Shown here in pieces: positions 13,262 through 39,333 of a stretch of 39,403 nucleotides of DNA. The notes under the pieces were generated by a model. It had not been told where the DNA came from. It worked only from the letters and a program-made list of their open reading frames with translations, and did no database searches. Source of the DNA: Gemmatimonadota bacterium (lineage in GTDB: Bacteria; Gemmatimonadota; Gemmatimonadetes; Gemmatimonadales; GWC2-71-9); contig QHVC01000050.1 of assembly GCA_003222205.1 (NCBI GenBank), positions 1-39,403 of the forward strand, written 5' to 3'. Numbering within the stretch: the first letter of the stretch is position 1; each line of letters opens with the position of its first letter. Position numbers and translations under genes: made by a program.

Positions 13262-13346
13262 GTTGCACGTTACAGGACGGCAAATTGCAGGAGCAATTCA
13301 CCTGCCACGGGCATTTGTTTGCAACCTGCCGTCCTGCAACGTGTTA
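13262..13346. repeat. Long imperfect inverted repeat, stop-proximal
   Basis: Arms are 13262-13289 and 13319-13346; by hand alignment 23 of 28 positions pair. Three of the five mismatches become G-U wobbles in minus-strand RNA, the sense of the gene ending 25 bp away at 13371. Each arm contains near-tandem pieces (CGTTGCA, CGTTACAGG, TTGCAGG). There is no U-tract. Apart from this repeat, the terminator and the small ORF, I see nothing in 13035-13370. Confidence 0.75.
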
Positions 13347-13370
13347 CTGGGCGGGGTGGGAGCGGGGTGG

Positions 13371-14192
13371 CTACTCCGACACGTTCGCCCGCGTGTCCGC
13401 CTGACGCGGCTTCAGGGCTGTGAACCCTCCCCCTTTGCCGCGCCGGTGGCGCTGCAGCTGCCAGCCGTCGTATTCGCCCTGGAGGCCCTTCAACGCCAGC
13501 GGGATGACGGCCTCGCCCCTGGGGCCGGAAAGGATGATGTGCACCCCGCCGGGCCGGGTTCGGGCCTGGAGGTCGGCGAGGAAGCTGCGGCGATCCTTGG
13601 CGCGCGCGGACGCGAGTGCGCCGGGGTCGATGACCACGAGTGCCGGAAGGACGTCGGGGAGCCAGCTGCCGAAGTGGACGACGAGCGACTCGAAGCGCGT
13701 CGCCAGCTGTTCGGTGACCGCGCGGCTCTCGGCGCCTTCCACTGCCGCGAGCTCCTGATCGAGGAGCAGCACCGCTACGTCGTGGGCGGCGATGAGCAGG
13801 GCCGCCGGGAGCGCCGAGGCGCCGATCACGAGCGCCAGGTCTCCCGGCTCTAGCCGCGGCGTCCACGACACGACCGGATGCTCGGCGTCGAGCCCCCAGT
13901 GCGTGGGCTGGCGCTGCGCATCGCGCAGCGCGCGGTGCTTCTGCTTCCAGCGCTGGAACGAAGGCAGGCGCAGCCGGCGGGCGATGAGCCGGTCCACGTG
14001 CTCGAGCAGCAGCACTTCGGTGAGCAAGTACTGGTCCTGGGCGTTCGCCTCCAGCTCGCGCACGGCCTCGTCGCCGATGCGCAGCAGTTCCTCACGGGAT
14101 ACGGTGTTCTTGTACTCCTCGATGCGCTCGAGCAGAAACTCCTGATACTCCTGCTTGGGCGAGGGGAGCGGGCGCCGCAGTGGGGTCAGCAC
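13371..14192 (-). CDS. Hypothetical protein with degenerate methyltransferase-like (Rossmann) domain
   Basis: From the GTG at 14192 the product is 273 residues. An N-terminal helical part (about 10-85; YQEFLLERIEEYKNTVSREE, then VLLLEHVDRLIARRL) precedes a Rossmann-like part. That part resembles a class I methyltransferase: DLALVIGASALPAALLIA at the motif I site, LVVIDPGAL near motif IV, and TRPGGVHIILSG near motif V. The glycine-rich SAM loop is poor, so it may not bind SAM. The start overlaps the CDF gene stop by 7 bp, implying coupling. The frame is open upstream to 14519 but overlaps the CDF gene, which is clearly real. The C terminus is basic (RHRRGKGGGFTALKPRQ). Confidence 0.6.
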   Translation of the reverse strand: MLTPLRRPLPSPKQEYQEFLLERIEEYKNTVSREELLRIGDEAVRELEANAQDQYLLTEVLLLEHVDRLIARRLRLPSFQRWKQKHRALRDAQRQPTHWGLDAEHPVVSWTPRLEPGDLALVIGASALPAALLIAAHDVAVLLLDQELAAVEGAESRAVTEQLATRFESLVVHFGSWLPDVLPALVVIDPGALASARAKDRRSFLADLQARTRPGGVHIILSGPRGEAVIPLALKGLQGEYDGWQLQRHRRGKGGGFTALKPRQADTRANVSE

Positions 14193-15064
14193 GGCTCGAC
14201 GTGCACCGTGACTTCGTCGAGCTGCAGATCGCGCTTGAGTCGCTCCTCGACCTCGTCCGCGATGGCGTGCGCGGCCGCGACGTTCGCATCCTTGTCCACG
14301 GCGATGGTCACCTCGGCGTATCGCGCCGCGGCGCCGTCCCGGGAGCGGATGCCATACGCCCCCTTGACCCCGTCGACGGCTTCCGCCGCCCGCTGGATGT
14401 CCCCGGCGAAGATCGCGCGCTGGTCGACGAGCACGGGGACGGCGCTGCTGAGGATCTGGTAGGCGACGCGCACGATGAGCACGGCGATCACGAACGTGAG
14501 GACGGGGTCGACCCACCACCAGCCGCGCCGGCCGAACAGCATCCCAATGACCACCCCGATCGTGATCAGCACGTCGGTGCGGGTGTGGGCGGCGTCGGCG
14601 ATCAGCAGCTGGCTCCCCAGCTGGCGGCCGCGGCGCTGCTCGTAACGCGTCACCAGCACGTTGATTGCCAGCGTCGCGAGCAGGATGGCGAACTGCGCCT
14701 CCGAGAGCAGCGGCGCGCGGTGGTCGCCGGAGAAGCGGTACACCGCCTGGCGCACCAGCTCGAAACAGGTGATCGACAGGAAGCCGACGATCGCGAGGGC
14801 GCCGAGGGTCTCGAACTTGCCATGCCCGTACGGGTGGTCCTCATCCGGGGCCTTCGTGGCGACGCGCATGACGACGAGCGCGAGCACGTTGTTCAAGGCG
14901 TCGACGCCGGAGTGCAAGGCGTCGCCGAGGACCGCGAGGGAGTGGGCCACGAGGCCGACGCCGACCTTCGCGGCGACGACGACAAGGTTGGCGAACAGCA
15001 GGCCGAACAACACGCGCCGGATGCGGCCGGTCCGGTCGGAAGTTGTGGGCTGCTGATGCGGCAT
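14186..15064 (-). CDS. Cation diffusion facilitator (CDF) family transporter, Zn-type
   Basis: The protein (292 residues from the ATG at 15064) is an inner-membrane proton/metal antiporter with six predicted helices and a cytoplasmic C-terminal domain. Metal-site residues are HSGVD in the second helix and HTRTD in the fifth, the HD-HD pattern typical of zinc exporters. The loop DEDHPYGHGKFE is a family signature. The C-terminal half (about 205-292) is the dimerising ferredoxin-like domain ending EVTVHVEPC. A TTG start at 15112 would add 16 residues and abut the SdpR-type operator. The promoter region is shared with the divergent ArsR-family gene, so joint control is possible. It is followed by the overlapping 13371-14192 gene. 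Confidence 0.9.
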   Translation of the reverse strand: MPHQQPTTSDRTGRIRRVLFGLLFANLVVVAAKVGVGLVAHSLAVLGDALHSGVDALNNVLALVVMRVATKAPDEDHPYGHGKFETLGALAIVGFLSITCFELVRQAVYRFSGDHRAPLLSEAQFAILLATLAINVLVTRYEQRRGRQLGSQLLIADAAHTRTDVLITIGVVIGMLFGRRGWWWVDPVLTFVIAVLIVRVAYQILSSAVPVLVDQRAIFAGDIQRAAEAVDGVKGAYGIRSRDGAAARYAEVTIAVDKDANVAAAHAIADEVEERLKRDLQLDEVTVHVEPC

Positions 15065-15105
15065 GGGGTGCAAGCTTGTAAAAGGAAGCGAAGGAGTCAA
15101 CGGAC

Positions 15106-15134
15106 TTGACAATATTTAGACATGCGTCTAATTA
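15106..15134 (+). promoter_or_regulatory. Promoter of the sdpR/sdpI-like operon, leaderless
   Basis: TTGACA (15106-15111), 17-bp spacer, TAATTA (15129-15134): the best sigma-70 match in the window. Expected start of transcription is about 15141, 1-2 nt before the ATG at 15143, with no room for a Shine-Dalgarno. The spacer contains the perfect palindrome listed next. Confidence 0.75.
15116..15131. promoter_or_regulatory. Predicted autoregulatory operator of the ArsR/SdpR-type repressor
   Basis: Perfect inverted repeat TTAGAC-ATGC-GTCTAA lying between the -35 and -10 boxes. Bound repressor would block RNA polymerase. ArsR-family dimers bind such AT-rich palindromes. The centre contains an ATG (15122), in frame with the repressor, which should not be taken as the gene start. 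Confidence 0.7.
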
Positions 15135-15142
15135 TCGGCGCT

Positions 15143-15415
15143 ATGCGTGACGCCCTGTTCCGAGCCCTGGCGGATCCGACCCGCCGCCGAATCCTCGAGC
15201 TGCTGGCGGAGCGGGACCGTACCGCGGGTGAGATCGCCGAGCATTTCCCGATCGCGTTCGCGTCGGTGTCGCACCATCTCGGTGTGCTGAAGGGCGCCGG
15301 GCTGGTCGCCGCAGAGCGTGAGGGCCAGCACATCCGCTACCGGTTGAATTCGACCGTCTTTCAGGACGTGGTCCGCTATCTGATGTCCAAGTTCGCGGGG
15401 GGGTCCGATGCGTAA
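15143..15415 (+). CDS. ArsR-family transcriptional repressor, SdpR-like
   Basis: The 90-residue protein is one winged-helix domain: MRDALFRALADPTRRRILEL at the N terminus, AGEIAEHFPIAFASVSHHLG as helix-turn-helix with recognition helix, and EREGQHIRYRLN as the wing. No metal-binding Cys pair is present, so it is not a metal sensor. It is coupled to the SdpI-family gene by an 8-bp overlap, the same arrangement as B. subtilis sdpR-sdpI, where the membrane protein sequesters the repressor. The start at 15143 is chosen because the ATG at 15122 lies in the operator and upstream of the expected transcription start. Confidence 0.9.
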   Translation: MRDALFRALADPTRRRILELLAERDRTAGEIAEHFPIAFASVSHHLGVLKGAGLVAAEREGQHIRYRLNSTVFQDVVRYLMSKFAGGSDA

Positions 15416-16052
15416 TCGCTGGCTCGGGTTCGTGGTGGCCGCTGTCGCGCTGGCGCTCGGCGTGTGGGCCTGGCCGCGGTTGCCGGCCCGCGTGCCCACC
15501 CATTGGAACATCCACGGCGTCCCGGACGGCTATTCGTCGCGGTTGGTCGCGGTGCTCCTCATGCCGGGCATCGTACTCGCGCTGAACGGTCTGTTCCGGA
15601 TCCTGCCCCTTCTCGACCCGCGGCGGGTGAACTACGAGAAGTTCCAGGACACCTACTGGCTGATCGCCAACGCGCTGGTGCTGTTCCTGCTCGGCGTGCA
15701 CGCGCTGGTGATCGCCAACGGGCTCGGCTATCCCGTCGCCATGGCGCGCCTCATGCCGGTGGGCATCGGGCTGTTGTTCATCGTGCTCGGCAACTCGCTC
15801 GCGCGCGTGCAACCGACGTGGTTCGTCGGCATCCGCACACCGTGGACGCTGTCGAGCGACACGGTGTGGCGGAAGACGCATCGCACCGGCGGGTTCACGT
15901 TCGTGATCGCCGGGGGGGTAATGATCACGGCGGCGTTCGTGTCGGGCGCGCTGGTGTGGGTCCTGCTCGCCGCGGCCGCGGTCCTGGCCGTCGCGGTGCC
16001 GGTCGTACAGTCCTACGTCCTGTGGCGGAGGGAGCAGCATGAGAAGCCCTGA
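15408..16052 (+). CDS. sdpI: SdpI-family membrane protein (DUF1648 plus SdpI domain)
   Basis: The 214-residue integral membrane protein has about six hydrophobic segments. The N-terminal DUF1648 region shows VPTHWNIHGVPDGY. The C-terminal SdpI signature is PTWFVGIRTPWTLSSDTVW followed by RKTHRTGG. In B. subtilis SdpI gives immunity to the SdpC toxin and captures SdpR at the membrane when toxin is present. No sdpC-like toxin gene is seen here, so the signal is unknown; many SdpI homologs occur without SdpC. It overlaps the repressor upstream (8 bp) and the hydrolase downstream (14 bp). Confidence 0.88.
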   Translation: MRNRWLGFVVAAVALALGVWAWPRLPARVPTHWNIHGVPDGYSSRLVAVLLMPGIVLALNGLFRILPLLDPRRVNYEKFQDTYWLIANALVLFLLGVHALVIANGLGYPVAMARLMPVGIGLLFIVLGNSLARVQPTWFVGIRTPWTLSSDTVWRKTHRTGGFTFVIAGGVMITAAFVSGALVWVLLAAAAVLAVAVPVVQSYVLWRREQHEKP

Positions 16053-17037
16053 GCTGGTGGCGTTGGCGCTCGTTGTCTTCGCACCGCAGGCGCGCGGCCA
16101 GGACATGACGCGGGCCGACACCGTCCCGCCTGCGGCCGCGATGGAATCGCCGTACACGATTCACAGCGGCCATCTGGGCCTCGGCGCGACGCTCACGGTG
16201 CCACGAGGGGCGAGAGGGACGGTGCCGATCGCCGTCATCATCGCCGGCTCGGGCCCCACCGACCGCAACGGCAACTCCGTCATGGGCATCCGGCCGAATT
16301 CCTACGCGCAGTTGGCGTGGCGGCTCGCAGAGCGGGGGATTGCCACGCTGCGCTACGACAAGCGCGGCATGCCGGCCACGCAGGGTACGTTCGATATCAC
16401 CACGATGACTGTGGAGGATTTCGCGGCCGACGCCCGCGCGGCGGCGGAGTCACTCGCGCGCGACGCGCGGTTCTCGCGTGTCGTGCTGGTGGGCCACAGC
16501 GAGGGAGCGTCGCTGGCGCTGATCGCCGCTCGCCAGGGCGCCCCGGTCGCCGGCGTGATCAGTGTTTCCGGTCTGGGCCGCCCTCTCGCAGAGGTGATGC
16601 GCGACCAGCTCAGCCGGCAGTTCGACAGCGCGACGTTGGTCCGCTACGACACCGCGATGAACCACTACCTGCGGGGCGAGCAGCCCGGGGACGTGCCTCC
16701 ACAGGTCGCCACGCTCTTTCTCCCGGTGAACCAGACCTTCATGCGGTCCTGGGCGGCGTTCGATCCGCCGGCGGCGATCCGCGCCGTGCGCCAGCCGGTG
16801 CTCATCGTGCAGGGGGAGACCGATCTGCAGGCGTCCCTCGCCGACGCCGAGCGGCTGCACGCCGCCCGGCCCGACGCGCGGCTCGTCTTGGTACCGGGGG
16901 CGAACCACGTGCTGAAGCACGCCACGGACCGGACCTTGGCCGGGCAGATGCCGACGTACACCGACCCATCGATCCCGATCGTGCCCGAGGCGGTGGCGGC
17001 GATCGCGGATTGGATCCTGGCGCTGCGCGGCCGCTAG
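16039..17037 (+). CDS. Secreted alpha/beta hydrolase
   Basis: The 332-residue product has a signal peptide (MRSPELVALALVVFAPQARG, cleaved about Q21). The alpha/beta hydrolase signatures are S154 in VGHSEGAS (nucleophile elbow), an oxyanion-hole region IAGSGPTDRNGNS, an acid in VQGETDLQ, and the final His in PGANHVLKH. The sequence type is the serine aminopeptidase/esterase group often found in envelope operons; the substrate is unknown. GGAGGGAG lies just upstream of the ATG, inside sdpI. It is the last gene of the sdpR/sdpI-like operon, suggesting regulated expression. Its TAG shares the palindrome CTAG with the stop of convergent rlmI. Confidence 0.85.
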   Translation: MRSPELVALALVVFAPQARGQDMTRADTVPPAAAMESPYTIHSGHLGLGATLTVPRGARGTVPIAVIIAGSGPTDRNGNSVMGIRPNSYAQLAWRLAERGIATLRYDKRGMPATQGTFDITTMTVEDFAADARAAAESLARDARFSRVVLVGHSEGASLALIAARQGAPVAGVISVSGLGRPLAEVMRDQLSRQFDSATLVRYDTAMNHYLRGEQPGDVPPQVATLFLPVNQTFMRSWAAFDPPAAIRAVRQPVLIVQGETDLQASLADAERLHAARPDARLVLVPGANHVLKHATDRTLAGQMPTYTDPSIPIVPEAVAAIADWILALRGR

Positions 17038-18197
17038 TCGATGGCCTGGAGCAGCGCGCCCTTGAGGTAGCCCGTCTCCGGGGCCGTGACGAGCTCGGGG
17101 TGATCGCGGCCGGCGCCGACCCAGGCGAGGACTTGGAGGCGCCGGCCGCTGTCCTGGGCGGCTGCTCCCAGCATTTCGGCGAAGACGCCGCGGTTCACGT
17201 GATAGGAGCAGCTGCACGTGAGCAGCACGCCCCCCGGGGCGAGGATGGACATCGCGCGCAGGTTGATCTCCTTGTAGCCGGCGAGCGCGCGCGGCACGCT
17301 GTCCTTTGTCTTGGCGAACGCCGGTGGGTCGAGCACGATGGTGTCGAACTGCTCCTCGCGCCGCTCCAGGTCGCGGAGATAATCGAAGGCGTTTGCTTCC
17401 CGCCACACGATGTTGGTGAGACTGTTCAGCGCCGCGTTCTCGCGCCCGCGCGCCAGCGCGTCGCCGCTCGAGTCGACGGCCGTGACCTCCGCGGCGCGGC
17501 GCGCCAGGTGCAAGGCGAATGAGCCGTGATACGTGAAGAGATCGAGGCCGCGGCCGCCGGGCCGGGTGTGCGCGCCCGCCAGCGCCCGGTTCTCGCGCTG
17601 GTCGAGGAACGCTCCGGTCTTCTGGCCGCGGTGCGGCGCGGCGAGATAGTGGATACCGTCCTCCTCCACCTCGACCGTCTCGGGCACGGTTCCGCGGGCC
17701 GGGGTCACCTCGAGGGGCAGGCCCTCATGGCGGCGGATGGTGGCGTCGTTGCGCAGCAGGATGCCCTCCGGCGCGAGGGCCGCCTCGATGCCGGCGACGA
17801 CCGCGTCGCGGACCCGCTCGAGTCCCGCCGAGAGCAGCTGGGCGACGACGAACGGTCCGTAGCGGTCCACGACCAGCGCCGGCAGGCCGTCGCCCTCGGC
17901 GTGCACGACGCGGTAGGCGCTCGCGGCCACGGTGCCGCGGCGCGCCAGCGCGGCGCCGATGCGCCGGCCCCACCACGCGGCGTCGATCGGCGTGTCGTCG
18001 CGCGACAGCAGCCGCAGCCGGATCTCGGATCGCGGGGAGTACAGCGCTTGGCCGAGGAACTTGCCGCGCCGGTCCGCGACTCGGACGACGCCGGGGTCGG
18101 GGGGCGCCTCGACGACGTCGCTCCGATAGATCCAGGGATGGCCGAGCTTCCAGCGCTCGGCTCCTTTGGCCTTGACCGTGACGAGCATCTCGCTCAT
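17034..18197 (-). CDS. rlmI: 23S rRNA (cytosine-C5) methyltransferase, RlmI type
   Basis: From the ATG at 18197 the product is 387 residues, close to E. coli RlmI. An N-terminal PUA domain (about 1-75; GHPWIYRSDVV, GKFLGQALYSP) binds RNA. A central RlmI-like region (SAYRVVHAEGDGLPALVVDR) follows. The SAM domain has GQKTGAFLDQRENR, GLDLFTYHGSFALHLA (motif I), DTIVLDPPAFAKTK (motif IV) and LLTCSCSYHV, with the catalytic Cys expected in the last motif. The long open frame upstream is shadow sequence of aroH. The ATG overlaps the aroH stop (ATGA). Confidence 0.9.
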   Translation of the reverse strand: MSEMLVTVKAKGAERWKLGHPWIYRSDVVEAPPDPGVVRVADRRGKFLGQALYSPRSEIRLRLLSRDDTPIDAAWWGRRIGAALARRGTVAASAYRVVHAEGDGLPALVVDRYGPFVVAQLLSAGLERVRDAVVAGIEAALAPEGILLRNDATIRRHEGLPLEVTPARGTVPETVEVEEDGIHYLAAPHRGQKTGAFLDQRENRALAGAHTRPGGRGLDLFTYHGSFALHLARRAAEVTAVDSSGDALARGRENAALNSLTNIVWREANAFDYLRDLERREEQFDTIVLDPPAFAKTKDSVPRALAGYKEINLRAMSILAPGGVLLTCSCSYHVNRGVFAEMLGAAAQDSGRRLQVLAWVGAGRDHPELVTAPETGYLKGALLQAID

Positions 18198-18571: not shown

Positions 18572-19229
18572 GGCTCTGCTCGAATCGTTGCGCTTGATGG
18601 TGTTGACCGACGCGGCGTTGCTCAAGGGCCGCGACGCCGTGGACGTGTGCCGCCGCGCCGTCAGCGGCGGCGCGACCATGATCCAGGCCCGCCTCAAGAG
18701 CGCTCCCGCCCGGGAACTCGCCGCGCTCGCCCGGGCTCTGGTGAGCGCGCTTCCCGTCCCGGTGCTGGTCAACGACCGCGTGGACGTCGCCCTCGCCGTC
18801 GGCGCCGCGGGCGCGCACCTCGGTCAGGACGACCCTCCGCTCGATGCCCTGCGCCCTCGCCTCCCCCCGGGGTTCATTCTGGGCCTTTCGGTCGGCTCCC
18901 GCGAGGAAGCCGACCGGGTGGCGGCGTGGCCCGCCGACTACTGGAGCGTGGGCCCGTGTTTCCCCACGGCGACGAAGCCCGACGCCGGCGCGCCGCTCGG
19001 CACGGCGGGGTTCGCGGCGCTCGCACGCCGCGCGCCACCCGGGGTCCCCGTCATCGCCATCGGCGGCATCACCGCGGAGCGTGCCGCGGCCCTTGCGGCG
19101 GCCGACGCGGCGGGAGTCGCGGTGACAGCCGCGGTCTTCGGCGCTAGCGACCCGGCGGCCGCTGCGCGCGCGCTGCGCGCTGCATTCGATGGACCGCTTG
19201 AATCGCCGCCAGGTGCTCGCGGTAGGTGA
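18570..19229 (+). CDS. thiE: Thiamine-phosphate synthase
   Basis: The 219-residue TIM-barrel enzyme joins HMP-PP and thiazole phosphate to thiamine phosphate. Family motifs are MIQARLKS, LVNDRVDVALAVGAAGAHLG (pyrophosphate and metal site), GLSVGSREEA, YWSVGPCFPTATKPDAG and VPVIAIGGIT (phosphate-binding loop). No other thiamine gene is nearby. The start at 18570 overlaps the aroH start codon on the other strand; the ATG at 18597 (MVLTD) is an alternative that avoids this. The 3' end overlaps the convergent mltG by 86 bp. Confidence 0.9.
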   Translation: MALLESLRLMVLTDAALLKGRDAVDVCRRAVSGGATMIQARLKSAPARELAALARALVSALPVPVLVNDRVDVALAVGAAGAHLGQDDPPLDALRPRLPPGFILGLSVGSREEADRVAAWPADYWSVGPCFPTATKPDAGAPLGTAGFAALARRAPPGVPVIAIGGITAERAAALAAADAAGVAVTAAVFGASDPAAAARALRAAFDGPLESPPGARGR

Positions 19230-20226
19230 CCGAGAAGATGTGCTTGCCGTCGGGCTGCGCCACGAAGAACAGGAACGGCGTGCGCGCCGGGTACAGGGCG
19301 GCCGCGAGGCTGGCGCTGTCCGGCTGGCTGATCGGCCCCGGCGGGAGGCCCGGGACGAGGTAGGTGTTGTACGGCGAGCGGATCCGCAGATTCTTCTCCC
19401 AGACTCGGGTGAGGCGACGACCGTACGCGTAGATCACCGTGGGATCCGCCTCGAGCTTCATCCCCTTGCGCAGGCGGTTGTGGTACACCGCCGACACGTA
19501 TTCGCGGTCGGGCGCGTAGCGCACCTCCGCCTGGATGATGGACGCGAGCGTGACCAGCTGGTGGCGCGTCATCCGCAGCGAGTCGAGACGCGGCTGCCAC
19601 TCCTCTTGCCAATGCGCTTGGAACTGATCGGTCATGAGCCGCACGAGCTCGCCGGGGCCGACCCGCACGCGCACCGTGTACGTGGTGGGGTAGAGGTAGC
19701 CTTCGGCCGTGCCGGCGAGACCCGCGACGCCGAGCTGGCGTAGCAGCGTGGGATTCGACGCGGCGGCGAGGAGGGAATCGTGCGGCACCCCGAGTTGGCT
19801 TTGGGCGAGGTCGGCGATTTCCCGGAGCGTGAGGCCTTCCGGCACGGTCCAGCGCAGCAACGCACCGCGGCCGCGCTTCAGGGCGTCCACGAGCTCGCTC
19901 CAGCCCTCGTCGGCGTGAAAACCGTAGGTGCCGCTCTTCAGGCTGCCCGGGAGGCCATGCAGGCGCGCGTACCAGTGGAACGTCGTGGGATGCGTGACGA
20001 TGCCGTGGGCGACGAGCGAATCCACGGCGGCGTCGAACGTCGCGCCGCGGGGGATAGTGACGATCCGGCACTGCGCCGCCGGCTCGCAGGGCGTGGGGGT
20101 CGGGCTGCTACACGCGCTCAGGCTCGCCAGCAGGCCAATGCGGAATGCGGAGTGCGGAATGCGGAATCGCAATGCGAGCGTCGACGTGACACTCCGCATT
20201 CCGCATTTCCCATTCCGCATTCTCAT
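19144..20226 (-). CDS. mltG: Endolytic murein transglycosylase MltG, predicted lipoprotein
   Basis: The 360-residue protein cuts nascent glycan strands and so ends peptidoglycan polymerisation. Family motifs are VPEGLTLREIADLAQ (LysM-like region), AEGYLYPTTYTV, LASIIQAEV, VYHNRLRKGMKLEADPTVIY and SPYNTYLVPGLPPGPISQP. In the catalytic motif the first Glu of the E. coli form (ASIVEKET) is Gln; the second Glu is kept. Most MltG proteins have a transmembrane anchor; here LLASLSACSS is a plausible lipobox, so the anchor may be lipid. The ATG at 20226 overlaps the ruvX stop by 4 bp (ATGA). About 30 of the first residues are encoded by the repeat at 20137-20221. Confidence 0.9.
   Translation of the reverse strand: MRMRNGKCGMRSVTSTLALRFRIPHSAFRIGLLASLSACSSPTPTPCEPAAQCRIVTIPRGATFDAAVDSLVAHGIVTHPTTFHWYARLHGLPGSLKSGTYGFHADEGWSELVDALKRGRGALLRWTVPEGLTLREIADLAQSQLGVPHDSLLAAASNPTLLRQLGVAGLAGTAEGYLYPTTYTVRVRVGPGELVRLMTDQFQAHWQEEWQPRLDSLRMTRHQLVTLASIIQAEVRYAPDREYVSAVYHNRLRKGMKLEADPTVIYAYGRRLTRVWEKNLRIRSPYNTYLVPGLPPGPISQPDSASLAAALYPARTPFLFFVAQPDGKHIFSVTYREHLAAIQAVHRMQRAARAQRPPGR
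20137..20221. repeat. Inverted repeat with arms of tandem AATGCGG heptamers, inside mltG 5' end
   Basis: The left arm (20137-20167) is four tandem 7-mers related to AATGCGG plus AAT. The right arm (20191-20221) is the inverse, and by hand 27 of 31 positions pair. It begins 2 bp from the ruvX stop codon (20223-20225). It is translated as the MltG n-region (RNGKCGMRS, then RFRIPHSAFRI). Confidence 0.85.
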
Positions 20227-20639
20227 GCCGCCGTTCCCCGCTTTGCATCGAGATAATGCTGCAGCACCAGCGTCGCCGCCCACGCGTCCACGTCCGCTTT
20301 GCGGCCACGCGTGGAGGCGCCCATGTCGCGCACCGCCCGCAGCACCCGGGCGGTGGAGAGCCGCTCGTCCCACAGCTCGACCGGCCGCCCGGTGCGCCGC
20401 GCGATATCGTCGGCCAGCGTGCGCGCCGCGGCGGCGGCCGGGCCCTCGGCGGCTGCCTCGTCCAGGGGCAGGCCGACCACGACTCCCACGACCGCGTTGG
20501 TGTCCAGGAGCGCGACGAGCTGTCGCATGGGGAAGCGTTTGCCGGCGCGGCGGGTCAGCGTGGTGAGCGGCTGCGCGAGAGTCTGAGTCTCGTCGGAGAG
20601 CGCCAGGCCGATGCGACGCTCGCCCCAATCCACCCCCAT
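20223..20639 (-). CDS. ruvX: Holliday junction resolvase-like protein RuvX (YqgF)
   Basis: The 138-residue RNase H-like protein belongs to the YqgF/RuvX family, linked in E. coli to 16S rRNA 5'-end maturation and in others to junction resolution. Motifs are MGVDWGERRIGLALSDE (first Asp), VVGLPLDEAA, ELWDERLSTARV and DVDAWAATLVLQHYLD (last Asp). The ATG at 20639 follows GGAGGGG with about 6 nt spacing; the frame remains open to 20711 but that part is only repeat DNA. It lies between rho and mltG, and ruvX-mltG neighbours are common in bacteria. Confidence 0.92.
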   Translation of the reverse strand: MGVDWGERRIGLALSDETQTLAQPLTTLTRRAGKRFPMRQLVALLDTNAVVGVVVGLPLDEAAAEGPAAAAARTLADDIARRTGRPVELWDERLSTARVLRAVRDMGASTRGRKADVDAWAATLVLQHYLDAKRGTAA

Positions 20640-20651
20640 CAACCTCCCCTC

Positions 20652-20744
20652 CGTCGGACGGTCGGACGGTCGGACGGTCGGACGGGAAGGCGGATGCTCG
20701 GACGTCATCACCGTCCGTCAGTCCGTCAGTCCGACGGTCCGACG
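20652..20744. repeat. Inverted repeat with arms of tandem GTCGGACG octamers, between rho and ruvX
   Basis: The left arm (20652-20684) is four tandem copies of the 8-mer GTCGGACG. The right arm (20712-20744) has the same 8-bp period in inverse sense with drift (CCGTCAGT, CCGACGGT). By hand 28 of 33 positions pair. It ends 2 bp from the rho stop (20747-20749) and reaches the ruvX Shine-Dalgarno. There is no U-tract. Confidence 0.85.
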
Positions 20745-20746
20745 TC

Positions 20747-22006
20747 TCATCCCTGCTGCATGGTCGCGAAGAACTCGTTGTTGTTCTTCGTCCGCTTCAT
20801 CCGCTCGAGGAGGAACTCGATCCCTTCCACCGGGGGCATGTCGGCGAGGAAATTGCGAAGCAGGTAGATCTTGTTCAGCTCCTCTTTGGAGAGCAGCAGC
20901 TCCTCTTTGCGGGTGCTGGTCTTCTGCACGTCGATGGCCGGGAACGTGCGCCGCTCGGCGATGCGCCGATCGAGCACGACCTCCGAGTTGCCCGTGCCCT
21001 TGAACTCCTCAAAGATGACCTCGTCCATGCGGGAGCCCGTGTCGATGAGGGCCGTCCCGACGATCGTGAGGGAGCCGCCGCCCTCGATCTTGCGCGCGGC
21101 GCCGAAAAAGCGCTTCGGCTTCTGGAGCGCGTTGGCGTCGACGCCGCCCGACAGGATCTTCCCCGAGTGCGGCACCACGACGTTGTGGGCCCGGCCCATG
21201 CGCGTGATCGAGTCGAGCAGGATCACCACGTCCTTGCCGTGCTCGACCAGACGCTTGGCTTTCTCGATCACCATGTCGGCCACCTGCACATGGCGGTCCG
21301 CCGGCTCGTCGAACGTGGATGAGATCACTTCCACGTTCTGCCCCTTGACGTTCTCCTCCATGTCCGTCACCTCCTCGGGCCGCTCGTCGATGAGCAGCAC
21401 GATGAGGTAGATCTCGGGGTGGTTCTCGATGATGGAATTGGCGAGCTTCTGGAGGAGGATCGTCTTCCCGGCCTTGGGCGGCGAGACGATCAGTGCGCGC
21501 TGGCCCTTGCCGATGGGGCTGAGCAGGTCCAGCACCCGCATCGAAATGTCGCCGTCCTTGCGCTCGAGCCGGATCTTCTCTTCGGGGTAGCGCGGGCGCA
21601 GGTTCTCGAACGCGACGCGATGCTTGGCCTTCTCCGGCTCTTCGCCGTTGACCGTCTCGACCTTGAGCAGGGCGAGGTAGCGCTCGCCCTCCTTGGGCGG
21701 CCGCACCTGGCCGAGGATGGTATCGCCGGTGCGGAGATCGAAGCGCTTGATCTGACTCGGCGAGACGTAGATGTCGTCGGGACCGTAGAGGTAGTTCCAG
21801 TCGGGACTGCGCAGGAACCCGTACCCCTCGGGAAGGATCTCCAGCACGCCCTCGCCGCGGAGCACGGTGTCCGTGTCGAGGAGCGACTGCTCGATGCGGA
21901 AGATCAGGTCTTGCTTGCGGAGCCCCGAATAGTTTTGAATGTTGAGGCTCTCGGCCATCGCGTGCAGCTCCGCGACGGATTTCCTCTTCAGCTCTGCGAT
22001 GTCCAC
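20747..22006 (-). CDS. rho: Transcription termination factor Rho
   Basis: The 419-residue protein, the same length as E. coli Rho, is the hexameric RNA helicase that ends transcription. The N-terminal helical domain (1-48) carries [18 protein letters not shown]. The cold-shock-like RNA-binding domain (50-118) shows [14 protein letters not shown] and [19 protein letters not shown]. The RecA-type motor has the P-loop SPPKAGKT (175-182), [11 protein letters not shown] (Walker B region and catalytic Glu), [13 protein letters not shown], and the Q-loop/secondary site [17 protein letters not shown]. The usual LARAYN after SITR is MGRAHN here. The start is GTG with GGAG 12 nt upstream. It has its own promoter and a C-rich leader. 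Confidence 0.97.
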
Positions 22007-22109
22007 GTGTGCTTCGGCTCCGTTGGGGCTAAGGCGGGAAAACCCCGGATCTGGGGGAATGACGCGTTGCTAGTGGGTGTCTGGGAAAGCGGCGACGGGT
22101 GCAGGAGTT

Positions 22110-22138
22110 ATCCTAGACCCCTCGCACGCCTCCGTCAA
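22110..22138 (-). promoter_or_regulatory. Promoter of rho and start of a C-rich leader
   Basis: Minus strand TTGACG (22133-22138), 17-bp spacer, TAGGAT (22110-22115). Transcription should start near 22103, giving a leader of about 97 nt to the GTG. By hand count that leader RNA has 42 C and 20 G, the C-over-G bias of a Rho loading (rut) site, fitting autoregulation by premature termination as known for E. coli rho. Confidence 0.6.
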
Positions 22139-22146
22139 GGTCGCGT

Positions 22147-23250
22147 GTGGACCTGACCCCGTTCCTGGTGGCCTGGCGGCACAGCGCGCTGCGCGACCGG
22201 GAAGTCATTGACGCGCTTGTACATCCGACCCATGCCCCGCCCTCGCCGCAGCTGGCCGCCGCCCTGGCCGAGTGGCCGGGGAGCTACTACTGGTCGGACG
22301 AGCCCGACGGCCGCCACCTGATCCTCACCCGCCCCACTCCCGGGCGGCGCCGCGAGCGCTGGGGACTGCACGGCGCCCTCTTCGCGCTGACGCTCCTCAC
22401 GACGACCGTCGCCGGCGCCATTCTCGCCGGGACGATTCCCTACGACCCGAATCCGATCCGGCTGCTTCGCGGGCTCCCCGCCGCCGGGCTCGGCGCATGG
22501 GCGTCGGGGCTGGCGTTCTCGCTGCCGCTGCTCGCGATCCTGCTCGCCCACGAGCTGGGGCACTACGTGACCGCGCGCCGCTACCAGCTCGACGTCTCGC
22601 CGCCGTACTTCATCCCGGTGCCGCTGTTCCCGTCGTTCGTCGGCACGATGGGCGCCTTCATTCGCCTGCGGACGGTGGTTTCCGACCGGCGCCAGCTCTT
22701 CGATGTCGGTGTCGCGGGACCGATCGCCGGGTTCGTCGTCGCGCTGCCGCTGCTCGTCGTCGGCCTCGTGCTCGGACGCCCGCTGGCGCCCGATCCGGCA
22801 GTTCCCGGGATGTTCCTGCGCATCGGCCAGGGCACTATCGCGCTCGGCGACTCGCCGCTGACATGGGTGTTGCGCCGACTGGTCGTGGGGCCGCTGCCGG
22901 GTGTGCCGCTCCATCCGCTCGCGTTCGCGGCCTGGGTCGGGATGTTCGTGACGATGCTGAATCTCCTGCCGCTCGCGCAGCTCGACGGCGGCCACCTCCT
23001 CTACGCGGTGTTCCCGGGCTGGCACGAGCGGGTGGCGCGGGCGTTCCTGCTGTTGACGGCGGTGATGGGGGCGTGGTGGTGGGGATGGTGGGTGTGGGTG
23101 TTGCTCGTGCTGGCGTTGTCGCGCGGTCGCCTGGGGCATCCGCCGGTCCTCAATTCGAACCGTCCCCTGCCGCCCTCGCGCCGGCGCCTCGCCTGGGGAG
23201 CCCTGCTGCTGTTCCTGGTCACGTTCACGCCGGTGCCGTTTCCGCTCTGA
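22147..23250 (+). CDS. Site-2 protease family intramembrane metalloprotease (M50)
   Basis: The 367-residue polytopic membrane protein has the zinc motif HELGH (H135, E136, H139) in a transmembrane segment and the second motif LNLLPLAQLDGGH with D280 as the third ligand. FIPVPLFPSFVGTMGAFIR and VGVAGPIAGFVVALPL match the subgroup of site-2 proteases without a PDZ domain (EGY-like). Such enzymes cleave membrane-bound regulators or lipid-anchored substrates. The N-terminal 70 residues are soluble. The GTG start has only a weak AAGG upstream. It is divergent from rho. An inverted repeat begins at the stop codon. Confidence 0.9.
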   Translation: MDLTPFLVAWRHSALRDREVIDALVHPTHAPPSPQLAAALAEWPGSYYWSDEPDGRHLILTRPTPGRRRERWGLHGALFALTLLTTTVAGAILAGTIPYDPNPIRLLRGLPAAGLGAWASGLAFSLPLLAILLAHELGHYVTARRYQLDVSPPYFIPVPLFPSFVGTMGAFIRLRTVVSDRRQLFDVGVAGPIAGFVVALPLLVVGLVLGRPLAPDPAVPGMFLRIGQGTIALGDSPLTWVLRRLVVGPLPGVPLHPLAFAAWVGMFVTMLNLLPLAQLDGGHLLYAVFPGWHERVARAFLLLTAVMGAWWWGWWVWVLLVLALSRGRLGHPPVLNSNRPLPPSRRRLAWGALLLFLVTFTPVPFPL

Positions 23251-23345
23251 GACGGAGACGGGCGGGGTCGGGCAGGGACGGACAGCGTCGGGCGCGGTTC
23301 GCCCGTCACCGTCCGACTCTGCCCGCCCCTGTCCGTCTCCGTTTC
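23249..23345. repeat. Long inverted repeat starting at the site-2 protease stop codon
   Basis: Arms 23249-23294 and 23300-23345 face each other across 5 nt. By hand 37 of 46 positions are Watson-Crick, and 4 of the 9 mismatches are G-U pairs in plus-strand RNA, the sense of the gene it follows. The arms consist of degenerate GACGG/GTCGGGC units. No U-tract follows. The remaining 57 bp to the next gene hold the promoter at 23350-23377. Confidence 0.85.
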
Positions 23346-23349
23346 ACCA

Positions 23350-26710: not shown

Positions 26711-26715
26711 CGCAG

Positions 26716-30830: not shown

Positions 30831-30896
30831 CCTCGCTCCTAGCGTCGGAACCTGTTGCGCGGTAGGTTGATAGCTCGCTCGACCACGAGCCCATCG

Positions 30897-34168: not shown

Positions 34169-34188
34169 GCGCTATAAGGATGAAGCCA

Positions 34189-35226
34189 ATGTCACGGATC
34201 CGCTGGTTGCTGGTGCTGGGCGCGGTCGCCGCGTCGGCCCTGGGCGCGCAGAACGTCCAGAACGCCACGCTGCGCCAGGCGCTCGCGGCGTACGACAACC
34301 TCGACATCCCGCGGGCGATCTCGCTCGCGCGCCAGGCGCTGTCCCAGCGCTTAGGCGGCGACGAGCAGGCGCGCGCCTGGGAGCTGCTGGGGTTCGCCTA
34401 CAGCTCGTCCGACTCGCTGCTCAAGGCGGTCGACGCCTTCAAGCAGGCGATCCTGATCGACCCGGACCGCCAGCTCGATCCGGCGAAGATCTCGCCCAAG
34501 ATCACCAGCTCCTTCCTCCTGGCGCTCGCGCAGGTGCTGGTGGTGCGCCAGCTGCAGGTGGACAGCGCGGGATTTGTCGCAGGCGTGGGGCAGGGGGGCG
34601 TACCGATCCGCTTCACGGTGACGAGCCCCGCGCGCGTGCGCACGCGCGCGGTGAGCGGGGCGACCTCGGTGATCATTGACTCCAGCATCGCGACGGGACA
34701 GGTGAACCTGCGCTGGCCCGCGCGGCTCGCCAACGGCGATCCCATGCCGTCCGGGAATTACCTCATCATCGTCGACGCCGCGGCGGGACAGAACACCTTC
34801 TCCGCCTCGCAGCCGGTGCGCATCACCCAGGGGCAGGTGGACACGCTGCCCTGGCTCGACAAGATGCCCGGCTACGACTACCTGCCCGAGACGGAATACC
34901 CGCCGCAGAGCGGGCGGCCGCTCGCGCAGGCGCTGATGTACGGCGGCGCCGCGATCGGGGGCACGGTGGTGCTGCGCAACAACGACCTGGGCAGCGGCGG
35001 CACGGGCCCGGCGCTCGCCGTCAGCGCGGGCGCGCTGATCAGTGGCTTTCTCATGAGCCTCAAGAAACCGTCGGCGCAGCCGGCCCGCGCCAATATCCTG
35101 TACAACCGGCTGCTGCGTGACCAGCTGGCGCGGCGCAACGCCGACATCGCCCGGGAGAACCAGACGCGGCGCCAGCAGGTGCGCCTCACGGTGGTGCCGC
35201 TGCCCAAGACCGGGGGGACGCGATGA
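34189..35226 (+). CDS. Exported TPR-like protein with C-terminal membrane segment
   Basis: From the ATG at 34189 the product is 345 residues with a signal peptide (MSRIRWLLVLGAVAASALGA). A TPR-like helical region follows at about 25-100 (YDNLDIPRAISLARQAL, WELLGFAYSSSDSLLKAV). A beta-rich domain (GVPIRFTVTSPARVRTRAV, then PSGNYLIIVDAA) comes next, and then Gly/Ala-rich hydrophobic stretches around YGGAAIGGTVVL and ALISGFLMSLKKP. The ATG at 34165 overlaps the kinase stop (ATGA) and is in frame, but AAGGA is well spaced only for 34189. It is likely an accessory protein of the kinase; no family name. Confidence 0.7.
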   Translation: MSRIRWLLVLGAVAASALGAQNVQNATLRQALAAYDNLDIPRAISLARQALSQRLGGDEQARAWELLGFAYSSSDSLLKAVDAFKQAILIDPDRQLDPAKISPKITSSFLLALAQVLVVRQLQVDSAGFVAGVGQGGVPIRFTVTSPARVRTRAVSGATSVIIDSSIATGQVNLRWPARLANGDPMPSGNYLIIVDAAAGQNTFSASQPVRITQGQVDTLPWLDKMPGYDYLPETEYPPQSGRPLAQALMYGGAAIGGTVVLRNNDLGSGGTGPALAVSAGALISGFLMSLKKPSAQPARANILYNRLLRDQLARRNADIARENQTRRQQVRLTVVPLPKTGGTR

Positions 35227-35861
35227 GCCGCCTCGTCCGCAGCGCCGCCATCCTGCTCGTCGCGCTGGCCGGATCGGCGGCCGCCCAGCAGCGCTTCACC
35301 GTCGGCGTGCAGGGGGTCTATGCGGATTACCGCGAGACGTCGGCGTCCCTGAAGTTTACGGGCGGTGGCGTGGGGGCGAGTTTTGGGTTCGCGCTCCACA
35401 AGTTCGGTGCCGATGTGTCGTTCGCGTCCATCAAGCTCACGCCGGTGGACAGCACGGCGACTTCCGGCCAGGACTTCACCGCCAAGGTGTTCGACGCCAA
35501 TGTGCGGTGGCGGGTGCTCGGCCAGGTGAGCGGCGAGATCGGCGTCACCAGCCGCAAGATGGATCCCGAGTTCGCCGCGCAGGGCTTCGGCGCGGTGCGC
35601 ATCGGCGGCCGCGGCGTCGTCAACCTCGGCCCCGGCGCCGACCTCACCGTGCGCGCCCACTACCTCGCCGGTGCGAAGTTCTCGGGCGGCGGGACCGCGT
35701 CCTTCCCGATCGACCTGGGGCTCGCCTTTTCTCTGGGCCGCGCCGACGGGCGGCTGCGCGTGACCGGCGATTATGAGTTCCAGAGCATCAACCGCAAGAC
35801 CAGCGTGAAAGCCCCGGTGCAGCAGGCCCTGATGCGTGTGGGCGCGTCGCTGGGCTTCTGA
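35223..35861 (+). CDS. Small outer-membrane beta-barrel protein
   Basis: The 212-residue product has a signal peptide (MSRLVRSAAILLVALAGSAA, cleaved near AQQ). It continues as amphipathic strands ending in MRVGASLGF, whose final Phe is the usual outer-membrane assembly signal. Likely an eight-stranded barrel of the OmpA/OmpW size class; the function is unknown. Its ATG overlaps the stop of the TPR-like gene by 4 bp (ATGA), so it is cotranscribed with the kinase genes. Confidence 0.75.
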   Translation: MSRLVRSAAILLVALAGSAAAQQRFTVGVQGVYADYRETSASLKFTGGGVGASFGFALHKFGADVSFASIKLTPVDSTATSGQDFTAKVFDANVRWRVLGQVSGEIGVTSRKMDPEFAAQGFGAVRIGGRGVVNLGPGADLTVRAHYLAGAKFSGGGTASFPIDLGLAFSLGRADGRLRVTGDYEFQSINRKTSVKAPVQQALMRVGASLGF

Positions 35862-35880
35862 GAGTCGGAAAGGACGCCGC

Positions 35881-37968
35881 ATGAGACCCTCCATACGTTG
35901 GTTTATCGTCGCGTTCGTGGCGGCGGCCGCTTGCAAAGGCACCGAGCCGTTCGTCCCGGTGGCGACCACCGTGACCGTCACCCCAGGCACGATCAGCTTC
36001 ACCGCCGTCGGGGCTGCGCAAACGCTCGCGGCCACGGTCCTCGATCAGCGGGACAACGCCATGCCGAACGCGACCGTGACCTGGTCGACCAACAACCCCT
36101 CGGTGGCAACCGTCGGCGGCACCGGGATCGTGACGTCGACTGGCAACGGGTCAGCGCAGATCACCGCGACCTCCGGCCTCGCGACCGGGCACGCCAACGT
36201 GGACGTGGCCCAGGTGTCATCAGCTCTCCTCAAGTGGAACGGGGACGGGCAGACCGGCAGCGTCGGGACGGCGTTGCCCACCGCGCTCACCGCGAAGCTG
36301 ATCGACGGCTACGGCTCCCCCATAGCGGGCGTCGCGGTGACGTGGATGACGATCACCGGCTCGTTGAGCACTCCGGGGGGCACGATCACCGACGGCAACG
36401 GCTTCGTGAGCGCGAACTGGACACTGGGCACGACCTCCGGCTCGCAGCAGGCGACGGTGACCGGAGGGGGCGAGACGGCGGCGTTCACCGCCACCGCGAA
36501 CGCCGGGCCGCCGGCCTCCGTCGTCGTCCAGGCCGGGGACAGCCAGCGGGCGGCGCAAGGCACGCCCGTCCCGGTGCGGCCCGCCGTGCAGGTGCGGGAC
36601 CAGTACAGCAATCTCGTCGCGGGGGCGGCGGTGGCCTTCGCCGTCGACTCGGGCGGCGGCAGCGTGACGGGGGCCAACCCTACGACGAACGGCAGCGGCA
36701 TCGCGACCGTGGGCAGCTGGACCGTCGGCACCGGTAACAACACGCTGATCGCGACCGTGTCGGGGACCGGTCCGGTGAAGTTCCACGCCACGGGGGTCGT
36801 CCCCGGAGCGCCCAAGCAGCTCATCGTCACCGCGGGGAACGGCCAGACCGGGCTCATCGGGTACGCCTTGAACGTGCCGCCCGCGGTGGAAGTCGTGGAT
36901 TCCGAAGGCTTCCCGGTGCCCAACAAGCTCGTGACGTTCGCCGTGACAGGGGGCGGGGGGAGCGTCACGGGTGACACGATGACGACCGGCACGAGCGGCA
37001 TCGCCACCGTGGGGAGCTGGACCGTCCAGCTGGGCGCGAACACGCTGGGCGCGTCGATTCCCGACGCCGGCGTCACCAACAACCCGCTGTCCTTCACGGC
37101 CACGGGGGCCGCGCCCGACTACGACATCAGCATCCGGCCGCTCACGACTATGTCGCCGTCGCGGCGCGCGGTGTTCGACAGCGCGGCCGCGCACTGGGAG
37201 CGGCTCATTTATGGGGACGTGCCGGACATCCCCGTGAACATCCCGGGAGACACGCTGAAGAAGTACTGCACCGGCCGGACGACGCCGACGCTCAACGAGA
37301 CTATCGATGACATCGTGATCTACGCGATCCTCGATTCCATCGACGGTCCCGGAAAGGTCCTCGGCCGGGCCGGGCCGTGCTACATCCGCAGCTCCGGGTT
37401 CCAGCCGGTCATCGGCGTGATGTTCTTCGACACGGCAGACGTTGCGAGCTTCCCGTTCGACGTGGTCGTTACGCACGAAATGGGACACGTCATCGGCTTC
37501 GGGACGATCTGGGGCGGAAGATTCCTGAACCTCGTCGTCGGCCCTACGACCCAGGGCGGCACCGACCCGCACTTCGTCGGGCCGCAGGCGCTGGCCGCGT
37601 TCGATCGCATCGGCGGCACGGGGTACACCGCCGGGGCCAAGGTCCCGGTGGAGAACTGCTGCACGCCCGGCGGCGGCTCGAACGACGCCCACTGGCGCGA
37701 GGCGGTGTTCGGCGATGAGCTGATGACGTCGTTCCTCGGGGCAACCGGCGTACCGAAACCCCTCAGCGTGCTGACGGTCGCCTCGATGGGCGACGAGGGC
37801 TACCAGGTGAATTACGCCGGCGCCGACGCCTTCTCGCTCACCTTTGCCGCGCTGCGGGCGCAGGCCGGCGGCGGCCAGGCCGTACCACTCGTTGACGACA
37901 TTCTGCGGCTGCCGATCGGTGTCGTGGACGCGCGGGGGCGGTTCGTGCAGTGGGTGATGCCACGGTAG
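35881..37968 (+). CDS. Lipoprotein with Ig-like repeats and a leishmanolysin-like (M8) metalloprotease domain
   Basis: The 695-residue product is a lipoprotein: the signal peptide ends AFVAAAAC, with C18 lipidated. Domains in order: Big2-like (about 25-110), then three invasin-type Big1-like repeats (about 113-205, 210-305, 308-410). The repeats share motifs such as GIATVGSWTV. A metalloprotease domain follows: HEMGHVIGFG (H532, E533, H536), and H604 in DAHWREAVFGDELMT, 68 residues on, as the third zinc ligand. This is the leishmanolysin pattern. AAAGGA precedes the ATG. Probably surface-exposed and degrading external or envelope proteins. A close paralog follows directly. Confidence 0.85.
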   Translation: MRPSIRWFIVAFVAAAACKGTEPFVPVATTVTVTPGTISFTAVGAAQTLAATVLDQRDNAMPNATVTWSTNNPSVATVGGTGIVTSTGNGSAQITATSGLATGHANVDVAQVSSALLKWNGDGQTGSVGTALPTALTAKLIDGYGSPIAGVAVTWMTITGSLSTPGGTITDGNGFVSANWTLGTTSGSQQATVTGGGETAAFTATANAGPPASVVVQAGDSQRAAQGTPVPVRPAVQVRDQYSNLVAGAAVAFAVDSGGGSVTGANPTTNGSGIATVGSWTVGTGNNTLIATVSGTGPVKFHATGVVPGAPKQLIVTAGNGQTGLIGYALNVPPAVEVVDSEGFPVPNKLVTFAVTGGGGSVTGDTMTTGTSGIATVGSWTVQLGANTLGASIPDAGVTNNPLSFTATGAAPDYDISIRPLTTMSPSRRAVFDSAAAHWERLIYGDVPDIPVNIPGDTLKKYCTGRTTPTLNETIDDIVIYAILDSIDGPGKVLGRAGPCYIRSSGFQPVIGVMFFDTADVASFPFDVVVTHEMGHVIGFGTIWGGRFLNLVVGPTTQGGTDPHFVGPQALAAFDRIGGTGYTAGAKVPVENCCTPGGGSNDAHWREAVFGDELMTSFLGATGVPKPLSVLTVASMGDEGYQVNYAGADAFSLTFAALRAQAGGGQAVPLVDDILRLPIGVVDARGRFVQWVMPR

Positions 37969-39266
37969 GTCCCCTCGCTCCGCTCGGGGCAGGCTGGTCG
38001 GATCCTTGCTTCGCTCGGGGCAGGCTCGTTGCCCTCCTGATCGCCGCGGGGCTGGCGGTGTCGGGCTGCAAGGGGGGCGAGCTGCTCTTTCAGGCGTTCG
38101 GTCTCAACCTCCAGAAGGTCGCCGGCGACGGGCAGACCGGGCTCGCGACTTTCGCCGTGAACACCCCACCAGCCGTCGAGGTGACGGACACTGCCGGGCT
38201 TCCCGTTCCCAACGCGCAGGTGACGTTCGCGGTCACGAGCGGAGGCGGGAGCGTCACCGGCGGCTCGGCCACGACCGGCAGCGACGGTATCGCGACCGTG
38301 GGGAGCTGGACGGTGCAGTTGGGAGCGAACACGCTGCGCGCGACGGCTGCCGGCAGTAGCGGGTCCGTCAGCTTTGCCGCGACCGGAGTGGCTGCCACCT
38401 ATACCATCGACGTCCGCTTCCTCGGCCCCCCGATGTCGCCGGCCCGCCGGGCTGTGTTCACCGCGGCGGCGGCGCGCTGGGGCCAGCTTATCTACGGGGA
38501 CGTGCCGGATATCCCCGTTTCGATCCCTGGCGACACGCTGGCCAAGTACTGCACCGGCACCAAAAACACCCCGTCCACTCTCAACGAGACGATCGACGAC
38601 ATCGTGATCTTCGCGATCCTCGACTCGATCGACGGGTTTGGGAAGATTCTCGCCCGGTCCGGCCCGTGCTATATCCGGGCGCCGAGTTTCCATTACCAGC
38701 CCGTCATCGGCGTGATGTATTTCGACACGGCGGACGTGGTGAGCCTGGAGGGCACCGGCAAGTTCGACGAGGTGGTCACGCACGAGATGGGGCACGTACT
38801 CGGCTATGGCACGATCTGGGACCCGAGCCACGACAACCTGCTCGTGGGCCCCGCGGGATCGGGGGGGACCGATCCGCACTTCGTCGGGACCCAGGCCATC
38901 GCGGCGTTTGACCGCATCGGCGGGACCGGCTACACGGCGGGGGCCAAGGTGCCCGTCGAGGCCACCGGGGGGCCGGGGACCCAGGACTCCCATTGGCGCA
39001 AGACGGTGTTCGGACCGGAGCTGATGACCGGAATCCTGAGTTCGGGCGTGCCGAACCCGTTGAGCGTGGTGACGGTTGCGTCGATGGGCGATGAGTTCTA
39101 CCAGGTGAACTACGCGGGGGCCGACCCGTTCTCCCTCAGCTTCGCGGCGGCGATGCTGCAGGCGCTGGAGGGCGTTCCCCCAATCGAGCTCGGGGACGAC
39201 GTCCTGCGCCTGCCGCTGCGCGTTCTGGACCAGCGAGGACGGCTGGTGCGGGTGGTGCCGCAGTAG
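37950..39266 (+). CDS. Second leishmanolysin-like lipoprotein, paralog with one Ig-like repeat
   Basis: The 438-residue product resembles the C-terminal 380 residues of the previous gene. It has one Big1-like repeat (about 56-148), then the M8-like domain with HEMGHVLGYG (H278, E279, H282) and H348 in DSHWRKTVFGPELMT. The lipobox is LAVSGC (C40). The only usable start is the GTG at 37950, inside the previous gene. Residues about 7-25 (GPLAPLGAGWSDPCFARG) are encoded by two copies of a dispersed repeat, so the signal-peptide n-region is odd and long. It may be a tandem duplicate that gained or kept repeats at its 5' end. Translation initiation here is less certain than the rest. Confidence 0.8.
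   Translation: MGDATVGPLAPLGAGWSDPCFARGRLVALLIAAGLAVSGCKGGELLFQAFGLNLQKVAGDGQTGLATFAVNTPPAVEVTDTAGLPVPNAQVTFAVTSGGGSVTGGSATTGSDGIATVGSWTVQLGANTLRATAAGSSGSVSFAATGVAATYTIDVRFLGPPMSPARRAVFTAAAARWGQLIYGDVPDIPVSIPGDTLAKYCTGTKNTPSTLNETIDDIVIFAILDSIDGFGKILARSGPCYIRAPSFHYQPVIGVMYFDTADVVSLEGTGKFDEVVTHEMGHVLGYGTIWDPSHDNLLVGPAGSGGTDPHFVGTQAIAAFDRIGGTGYTAGAKVPVEATGGPGTQDSHWRKTVFGPELMTGILSSGVPNPLSVVTVASMGDEFYQVNYAGADPFSLSFAAAMLQALEGVPPIELGDDVLRLPLRVLDQRGRLVRVVPQ
37970..38025 (-). repeat. Two direct copies of the GCGNAGC-core repeat in the second protease gene
   Basis: Plus strand reads CCCCTCGCTCCGCTCGGGGC and, after GGTCGGAT, a second copy CTTGCTTCGCTCGGGGCAGG. On the minus strand the cores are GCGGAGC (37977-37983) and GCGAAGC (38008-38014). 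Together with 1366-1410 the window has four copies, with C, C, G and A at the variable position. Confidence 0.8.
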
Positions 39267-39269
39267 GAC

Positions 39270-39333
39270 AGTCGGACAGTCTGACTGTTAGGCGCTTAAC
39301 CGTCCGACGGTCCGACGGTCCGTCTGTCCGACT
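39270..39333. repeat. Inverted repeat between the second protease gene and tRNA-Arg
   Basis: Left arm 39270-39289, right arm 39314-39333, about 15 of 20 positions paired by hand. The right side contains tandem GACGGTCC octamers (39301-39320), related to the unit at 20652-20744. It starts 4 bp after the protease stop codon and ends 5 bp from the tRNA 3' end, so it lies downstream of both convergent genes. There is no clear U-tract. Confidence 0.65.

Follow-up and report, generated by a model that had tools for sequence, protein, structure and literature searches.

Foldback repeats with tandem-array arms at translation junctions in Gemmatimonadota

Five inverted repeats and their genes

The stretch of DNA considered here (the window: 39,403 nucleotides, contig QHVC01000050.1 of assembly GCA_003222205.1) is one contig of the 2.97-Mb draft genome of a Gemmatimonadota bacterium, hereafter the host genome, and carries five long inverted repeats (IRs) near the ends of genes. 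The five had been picked out in a first-pass annotation made from the letters alone, and an independent inverted-repeat search recovers all of them in the same places. Elements of this kind occupy approximately 50-120 bp and consist of a G-rich tandem array (with a unit that is usually 7, 8 or 10 nt long and contains GG), a short loop and the inverted array.

Two of the IRs are embedded in a row of minus-strand genes. The first (20652..20744, minus strand) begins 2 nt past the stop codon of rho (transcription terminator Rho; 20747..22006, minus strand; Pfam PF07497, PF07498, PF00006) and belongs to the GTCGGACN octamer family; a GTG/ATG start for ruvX (YqgF/RuvX Holliday junction resolvase family; 20223..20711, minus strand; PF03652) sits in its loop, so that the 3′ arm may encode an N-terminal extension of RuvX. 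The second (20137..20221, minus strand), a member of the GGAATGC (AATGCGG) family, begins 1 nt past the stop codon of ruvX, which overlaps the start codon of the next gene in the tetranucleotide ATGA (20223-20226). The initial placement of every IR on the 3′ side of a gene needs qualification here: this IR lies in frame within the open reading frame (ORF) of yceG/mltG (YceG-like lipoprotein; 19144..20226, minus strand; PF02618 on the overlapping ORF), not in a non-coding 3′ region, and the leader reads MRMRNGKCGMRSVTSTLALRFRIPHSAFRIGLLASLSAC.

On the plus strand, an IR built from 10-nt units GWCGGGCRGR (23248..23346) begins on the stop codon of an M50 family peptidase gene (22147..23250, plus strand; PF02163); the next 340 nt downstream contain no called start and are taken as non-coding. 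Another octamer IR (39270..39333, plus strand; core GTTAGGCGCTTAAC) lies 3 nt past the stop codon at 39266 of a protein gene and faces a tRNA gene (39338..39403, minus strand; Rfam RF00005, 52.3 bits) which has lost its 5′ end at the contig end and was missed by ARAGORN and found by Rfam. The remaining IR (13266..13343, minus strand) has 24-bp arms with a 15-nt, GTTGCAGGACGGCAG-like period, and similar units also follow the orthologous gene in two relatives, L166 and L189 (L- and G-numbers label loci or genomes of relatives, and C-numbers host-genome contigs). A distance of 0-25 bp from a stop codon had been given for all five IRs; this holds generally but fails for the last one. There, the stop codon at 13254-13256 does end an open stretch, but one of just 72 codons and not called as a gene by the coding model; the real neighbour is a minus-strand gene ending at 13371, with its stop codon 27 nt away.

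The predicted RNA folds of all five IRs lie well below dinucleotide shuffles (z −4.2 to −9.3). As originally noted, none is followed by a U-tract (there is no T run after any of the five), and G-U wobbles make up a large share of the mismatches in two of them (3/3 in 13266, in the sense RNA of the gene ending at 13371, and 4/9 in 23248); they account for 0/3 in 20137 and 0/5 in 20652. A scan of the window against Rfam at the gathering score returned the tRNA only, with no known RNA family matching the IRs.

Genome-wide placement, unit families and translated leaders

The host genome was sampled as stretches amounting to 1.69 of 2.97 Mb (57%), in which genes were called with a simple codon model and the flank of every stop codon was searched for IRs with a score of at least 15. 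Such IRs were found at 80 of 1435 stop flanks, whereas the 1435 shuffled flanks gave none and the 1032 mid-gene segments gave 2, so that the enrichment next to stop codons expected from the window is indeed present in the sampled genome. Many of the sampled contigs had been picked for octamer matches; on those chosen without them, 11 of 468 stops carry an IR, still far over the shuffle rate. The outer edge of the IR falls between −5 and +10 nt from the stop codon in 63 of the 80 cases, typically 1-7 nt past it. Per intergenic kb, same-direction gene pairs have a density of 0.74, convergent pairs 0.78 and divergent pairs 0.17, and the frequency per junction differs little among these three arrangements. 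Moreover, among 13 elements with room to spare ahead of the next start, 12 are nonetheless placed no more than 13 nt from the stop codon (3.7 expected under random placement; a value reached in 0 of 100,000 simulated draws), which indicates that stop proximity is not merely what selection leaves over.

The common design seen at the window loci extends across this sample. A period was detected in 86% of the 5′ arms compared with 10% of shuffled arms (the counts of periodic arms vary with the thresholds used), and, with IRs counted by stop, 114 of 124 periodic ones have a G-rich 5′ arm. Given that an IR reads nearly alike from either side, G-rich arrays run toward the loop on both strands. The units are mostly 7, 8 or 10 nt long and contain GG in 61 of 66 cases, although many lack GGG (the G-quadruplex criterion being four G-tracts).

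The 66 periodic junction IRs cluster into recurring units, with the largest clusters comprising the GGAATGC family (18 junction IRs, including 20137-20221), the GTCGGACN octamer (17 junction IRs, and 86 array loci overall) and GGTTGTC (7 junction IRs; family GGTTNTC), beyond which there are smaller groups; the 10-mer of the IR at 23249 also recurs. The octamer has 202 matches in the host genome, versus 0 for its reversed control. Read by eye, GTTAGGCGC..CTAAC is a core common to the octamer elements, as GCGTCGTG..CACGAC is to many of the GGAATGC elements. Thus, the claim that the units differ at every locus is partly wrong, since the window IRs at 20652-20744 and 39270-39333 have the octamer in common, and the view that the IRs are not copies of repeat elements finds no support, the units forming dispersed families with recurring cores. 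A single mobile repeat behind all the loci is likewise rejected, given several unit families with different cores. About 50 octamer loci have only one arm at the threshold used; those that are G-rich on the sense strand lie mostly just past stop codons, and the C-rich ones mostly much farther off.

A sizeable part of the elements supplies the translated N-terminal leader of the gene that follows, so that 3′-end structure does not serve as a general description. At the ruvX>yceG junction, the YceG start overlaps the ruvX stop and the frame is open through the whole IR in 21 of 21 genomes read, the window included, running into a lipoprotein-type signal sequence. These genomes are related, and accordingly the 21 cases are not 21 independent events; species with different elements nevertheless all keep the reading frame, and relatives without one mostly start at the matching place with a short leader. 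Among the periodic IRs of the host genome, 15 have a junction start and an open frame, 8 have a start in an arm or the loop, and 18 have no readable start inside; the remainder are convergent or far from the next gene. The leaders encoded by octamer elements take the form TVGRSDGRTVG, a hydrophobic stretch and SPTVRLS, for example MTVGRSDGRTVGLFGVLAYLSVSPTV, and, judging from the sequences, such leaders are presumably produced and cleaved. The residues encoded by a GGAACGC element at C171:26332 lie immediately ahead of a type IV pilin-like cleavage site (..SALRVPRSALGFTLIEL).

Orthologous junctions in related genomes

Relatives were collected through their RuvX proteins and are Gemmatimonadetes, mostly from soil metagenome assemblies; nearly all the genomes are drafts, and the species placed on a rho tree are few and related to one another. 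An IR is present at 20 of 62 orthologous ruvX>yceG junctions, nearly always with heptamers that fit GGANNGC and fall into three main types. On the rho tree, the presence of the element is clustered (7 changes against a shuffled mean of 14.3, with 0 of 500 shuffles as low). The unit type is unclustered: for 7 rows, each of the two commonest types requires 7 changes, a result that does not improve on shuffling. Species pairs with 94-97% rho identity differ in both unit and loop, and their flanks align well; the units swapped between such pairs are AACGCGG, AATGCGG or GATTGCG, each with different loops. An assembly artefact behind these swaps appears unlikely, because the flanks match, the elements are about 85 bp long and the frame is kept in every genome.

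The loops travel with the unit types and are sometimes inverted. In L153 and L156 the loop is inverted relative to the flanks when compared with L167 (TTGGAcgcacgcccTTCGA vs TTCGAagggcgtacgTCCA), an arrangement that recombination between the arms, or template switching, would be expected to produce. Mosaic arms in L201 and L174 show that local mixing occurs too. In L159, L160 and L168, the ruvX stop is followed in the YceG leader by a single direct array of heptamers (GTGCGCC, GTCGTGC) that lacks an inverted counterpart; such arrays may be half-elements, precursors or remnants.

At the rho>ruvX junction, an IR is missing from most genomes, in which rho either overlaps ruvX or almost touches it. 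The occupied junctions differ in unit (GTCGGACN, GGCGGACR, GGGCGGGAA, GACGGARAV, GGGAGTC, GGCGGATC, GGCGGATG and TGGAATGA), most occupied genomes having a unit of their own. The one such unit whose dispersal in its own genome was tested, GGCGGATG of G033, proved to be dispersed, with 55 matches in G033 and none in the host genome. A clean block difference separates L124, which is filled, from L127, which is empty: the break comes after TGAGC, and the C-terminal peptide of Rho is identical in the two.

Array counts differ widely among the 61 family members compared: the octamer has between 0 and 211 matches and GGAATGC between 0 and 70, with maxima of 35 for GGAACGC and 55 for GGCGGATG. The reversed control pattern (unit TAGGCGGG) has 38 matches in G006 and 21 in G060, pointing to another dispersed unit family in those genomes.

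Origin and significance of the elements

The elements thus form dispersed families that lie mostly 1-7 nt past stop codons. Some orthologous junctions lack them as a clean block, and at kept junctions it is whole cassettes that differ. With somewhat more belief than doubt, we propose that they are lineage-specific, non-autonomous foldback repeats that are copied and exchanged at translation junctions, a reading that we favor over purely local hairpins because of the dispersal, the patchiness, the clean presence or absence and the cassette exchange. Some activity would move, or gene-convert, copies from the current pool of the genome into translation junctions, and slippage together with inter-arm copying would keep the arms repetitive and complementary while the units drift. 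Where the next start overlaps the stop codon (NTGA), the element would be translated and would survive only if in frame, supplying a signal peptide with its n-region or with both its n- and c-regions. In other places, it would stay untranslated, as a hairpin between cistrons or at the 3′ end, and may there have a secondary role in protecting mRNA ends. The suggestion that the IRs are scars of a mechanism building arrays at gene ends may survive in a changed form only, that of whole cassettes differing at kept positions.

Several observations weigh against this proposal. No transposase or other mover was found, and a parent element, as for a miniature inverted-repeat transposable element (MITE), was not systematically sought; the presence of transposases of the Y1 or REP-associated tyrosine transposase (RAYT) type does not track array number, given that G048, G051, G043 and G025 have arrays and no match. 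The single filled/empty pair, L124 and L127, has no visible target-site duplication, and no particular stop codon, nor NTGA, is enriched at the occupied stop sites. Furthermore, in the 57% of the genome that was sampled, several units are represented by just one junction IR, and whole-cassette replacement is not fully separable from very fast concerted evolution within one element.

The best surviving alternative, which we regard as possible and no firmer than tentative, is that these are functional RNA hairpins whose fold is selected for 3′-end or intercistronic stability or for translational coupling, the sequence drifting by slippage and inter-arm copying. It would fit the tight spacing from stop codons, the elements that span whole convergent gaps, the strong predicted folds and the clustering of presence, without sequence, at ruvX>yceG, as well as the excess of G-U over A-C mismatches in the sense RNA (124:79, p=0.002). 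However, this excess could reflect a transcription-linked C-to-T asymmetry, and an octamer substitution control did not separate selection from mutational asymmetry; G-U mismatches are absent in two of the five window IRs. The proposed selection for RNA structure is only hinted at. Many relatives, moreover, lack a hairpin at the matching junction, and a hairpin function alone does not account for one unit at dozens of loci per genome.

A bolder version, in which an activity installs and exchanges arrays from a lineage-specific pool of units at stop codons, possibly via an RNA or transcription-coupled step, with position, polarity and frame kept, the sequence swapped and the signal-peptide leaders of cell-wall genes rewritten in this way, strikes us as doubtful. 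It is decidedly unlikely that the arrays arise de novo at each stop, where a conflict of replication or transcription (an R-loop or slippage, followed by template switching) would build inverted arrays from nearby G-rich sequence: the differing units at rho>ruvX, the single direct arrays in three YceG leaders, the G-rich 5′ arms and the inverted loops agree with such an origin, but the units are shared genome-wide and across genera, and their cores recur.

REP (repetitive extragenic palindromic) elements and bacterial interspersed mosaic elements (BIMEs), associated with RAYT transposases, are likewise many-copy, stop-proximal intercistronic palindromes, but their arms are not tandem arrays as here. 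That the present elements are classical REPs mobilized by RAYT (Y1/TnpA-REP) is highly improbable despite their position at stops and the Y1_Tnp genes of the host genome, because the RAYT-like gene there (C215:34799) adjoins a different palindrome with non-tandem arms and the presence of Y1_Tnp genes does not track the arrays, on which grounds RAYT was rejected as the mover. At C215:34624-35134, this RAYT-like Y1 transposase gene lies beside CCCCGGGC..GCCCGGGG, a palindrome that makes up a separate REP-like family together with its look-alikes at C107:9772 and C133:2836.

With respect to other described systems, intrinsic terminators are stable GC-rich hairpins just past the stop codon followed by a U-tract, whereas the foldback elements have no U-tract and also occur inside operons and in the next ORF. 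Translated long inverted repeats exist in the mitochondria of Nematomorpha, but both arms there encode conserved parts of proteins (PMC6649704), and here they encode tolerant leader sequence. The closest known systems are two. The Rickettsia palindromic elements (RPEs), short dispersed palindromes of several families, many in frame in protein-coding genes, are about 150 bp long, encode a conserved peptide and sit in unrelated metabolic genes (MITE review PMC10969869). In-frame palindromes within ORFs are shared with the present elements (all of the ruvX>yceG cases and 15 host elements), which differ in having no conserved element sequence or peptide in ORF bodies, and in their tandem-array arms, varying unit and location at stop/start junctions and in leaders. 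The nearer of the two, the GGGNATC heptamers of Xanthomonas and Nostoc, form G-rich arrays that are mainly non-coding, are depleted between divergent genes and have their G-rich strand as the sense strand 0-50 bp from the stop codon; their position is mostly kept between two species (83%), and a Xanthomonas genome has 70-75 of them as inverted pairs (Rehm et al. 2015, PMC4692102). A sense-strand G-rich tandem array within 50 bp of the stop codon is likewise found here, and inverted pairs are frequent in Xanthomonas; in contrast, there is one unit type per genome there, with an emphasis on G-quadruplexes, and here there are many units of 7-15 nt per genome, which vary at orthologous junctions and between sister species, along with in-frame leaders. 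No cluster of the GGGNATC type was present among the junction units. New here are the many units, their exchange at kept positions and the coding of leaders; as the first-pass annotation had supposed, no named family with this exact rule emerged from the literature searched, and searches for Gemmatimonas palindromic or tandem intergenic repeats and for translated repeat leaders found none.

In these genomes, species at about 96% identity share the inherited place and form of a repeat but not its sequence, which makes a mover or gene conversion directly testable. The elements are also a case of palindromic repeats being read as signal-peptide leaders, and annotators should treat N-termini like MRNAECGMRN..FRIPHSAFRI or TVGRSDGRTVG..SPTVRLS as translated repeats. 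Should the hairpins act in RNA, they would constitute a U-tract-free 3′ element in GC-rich bacteria.

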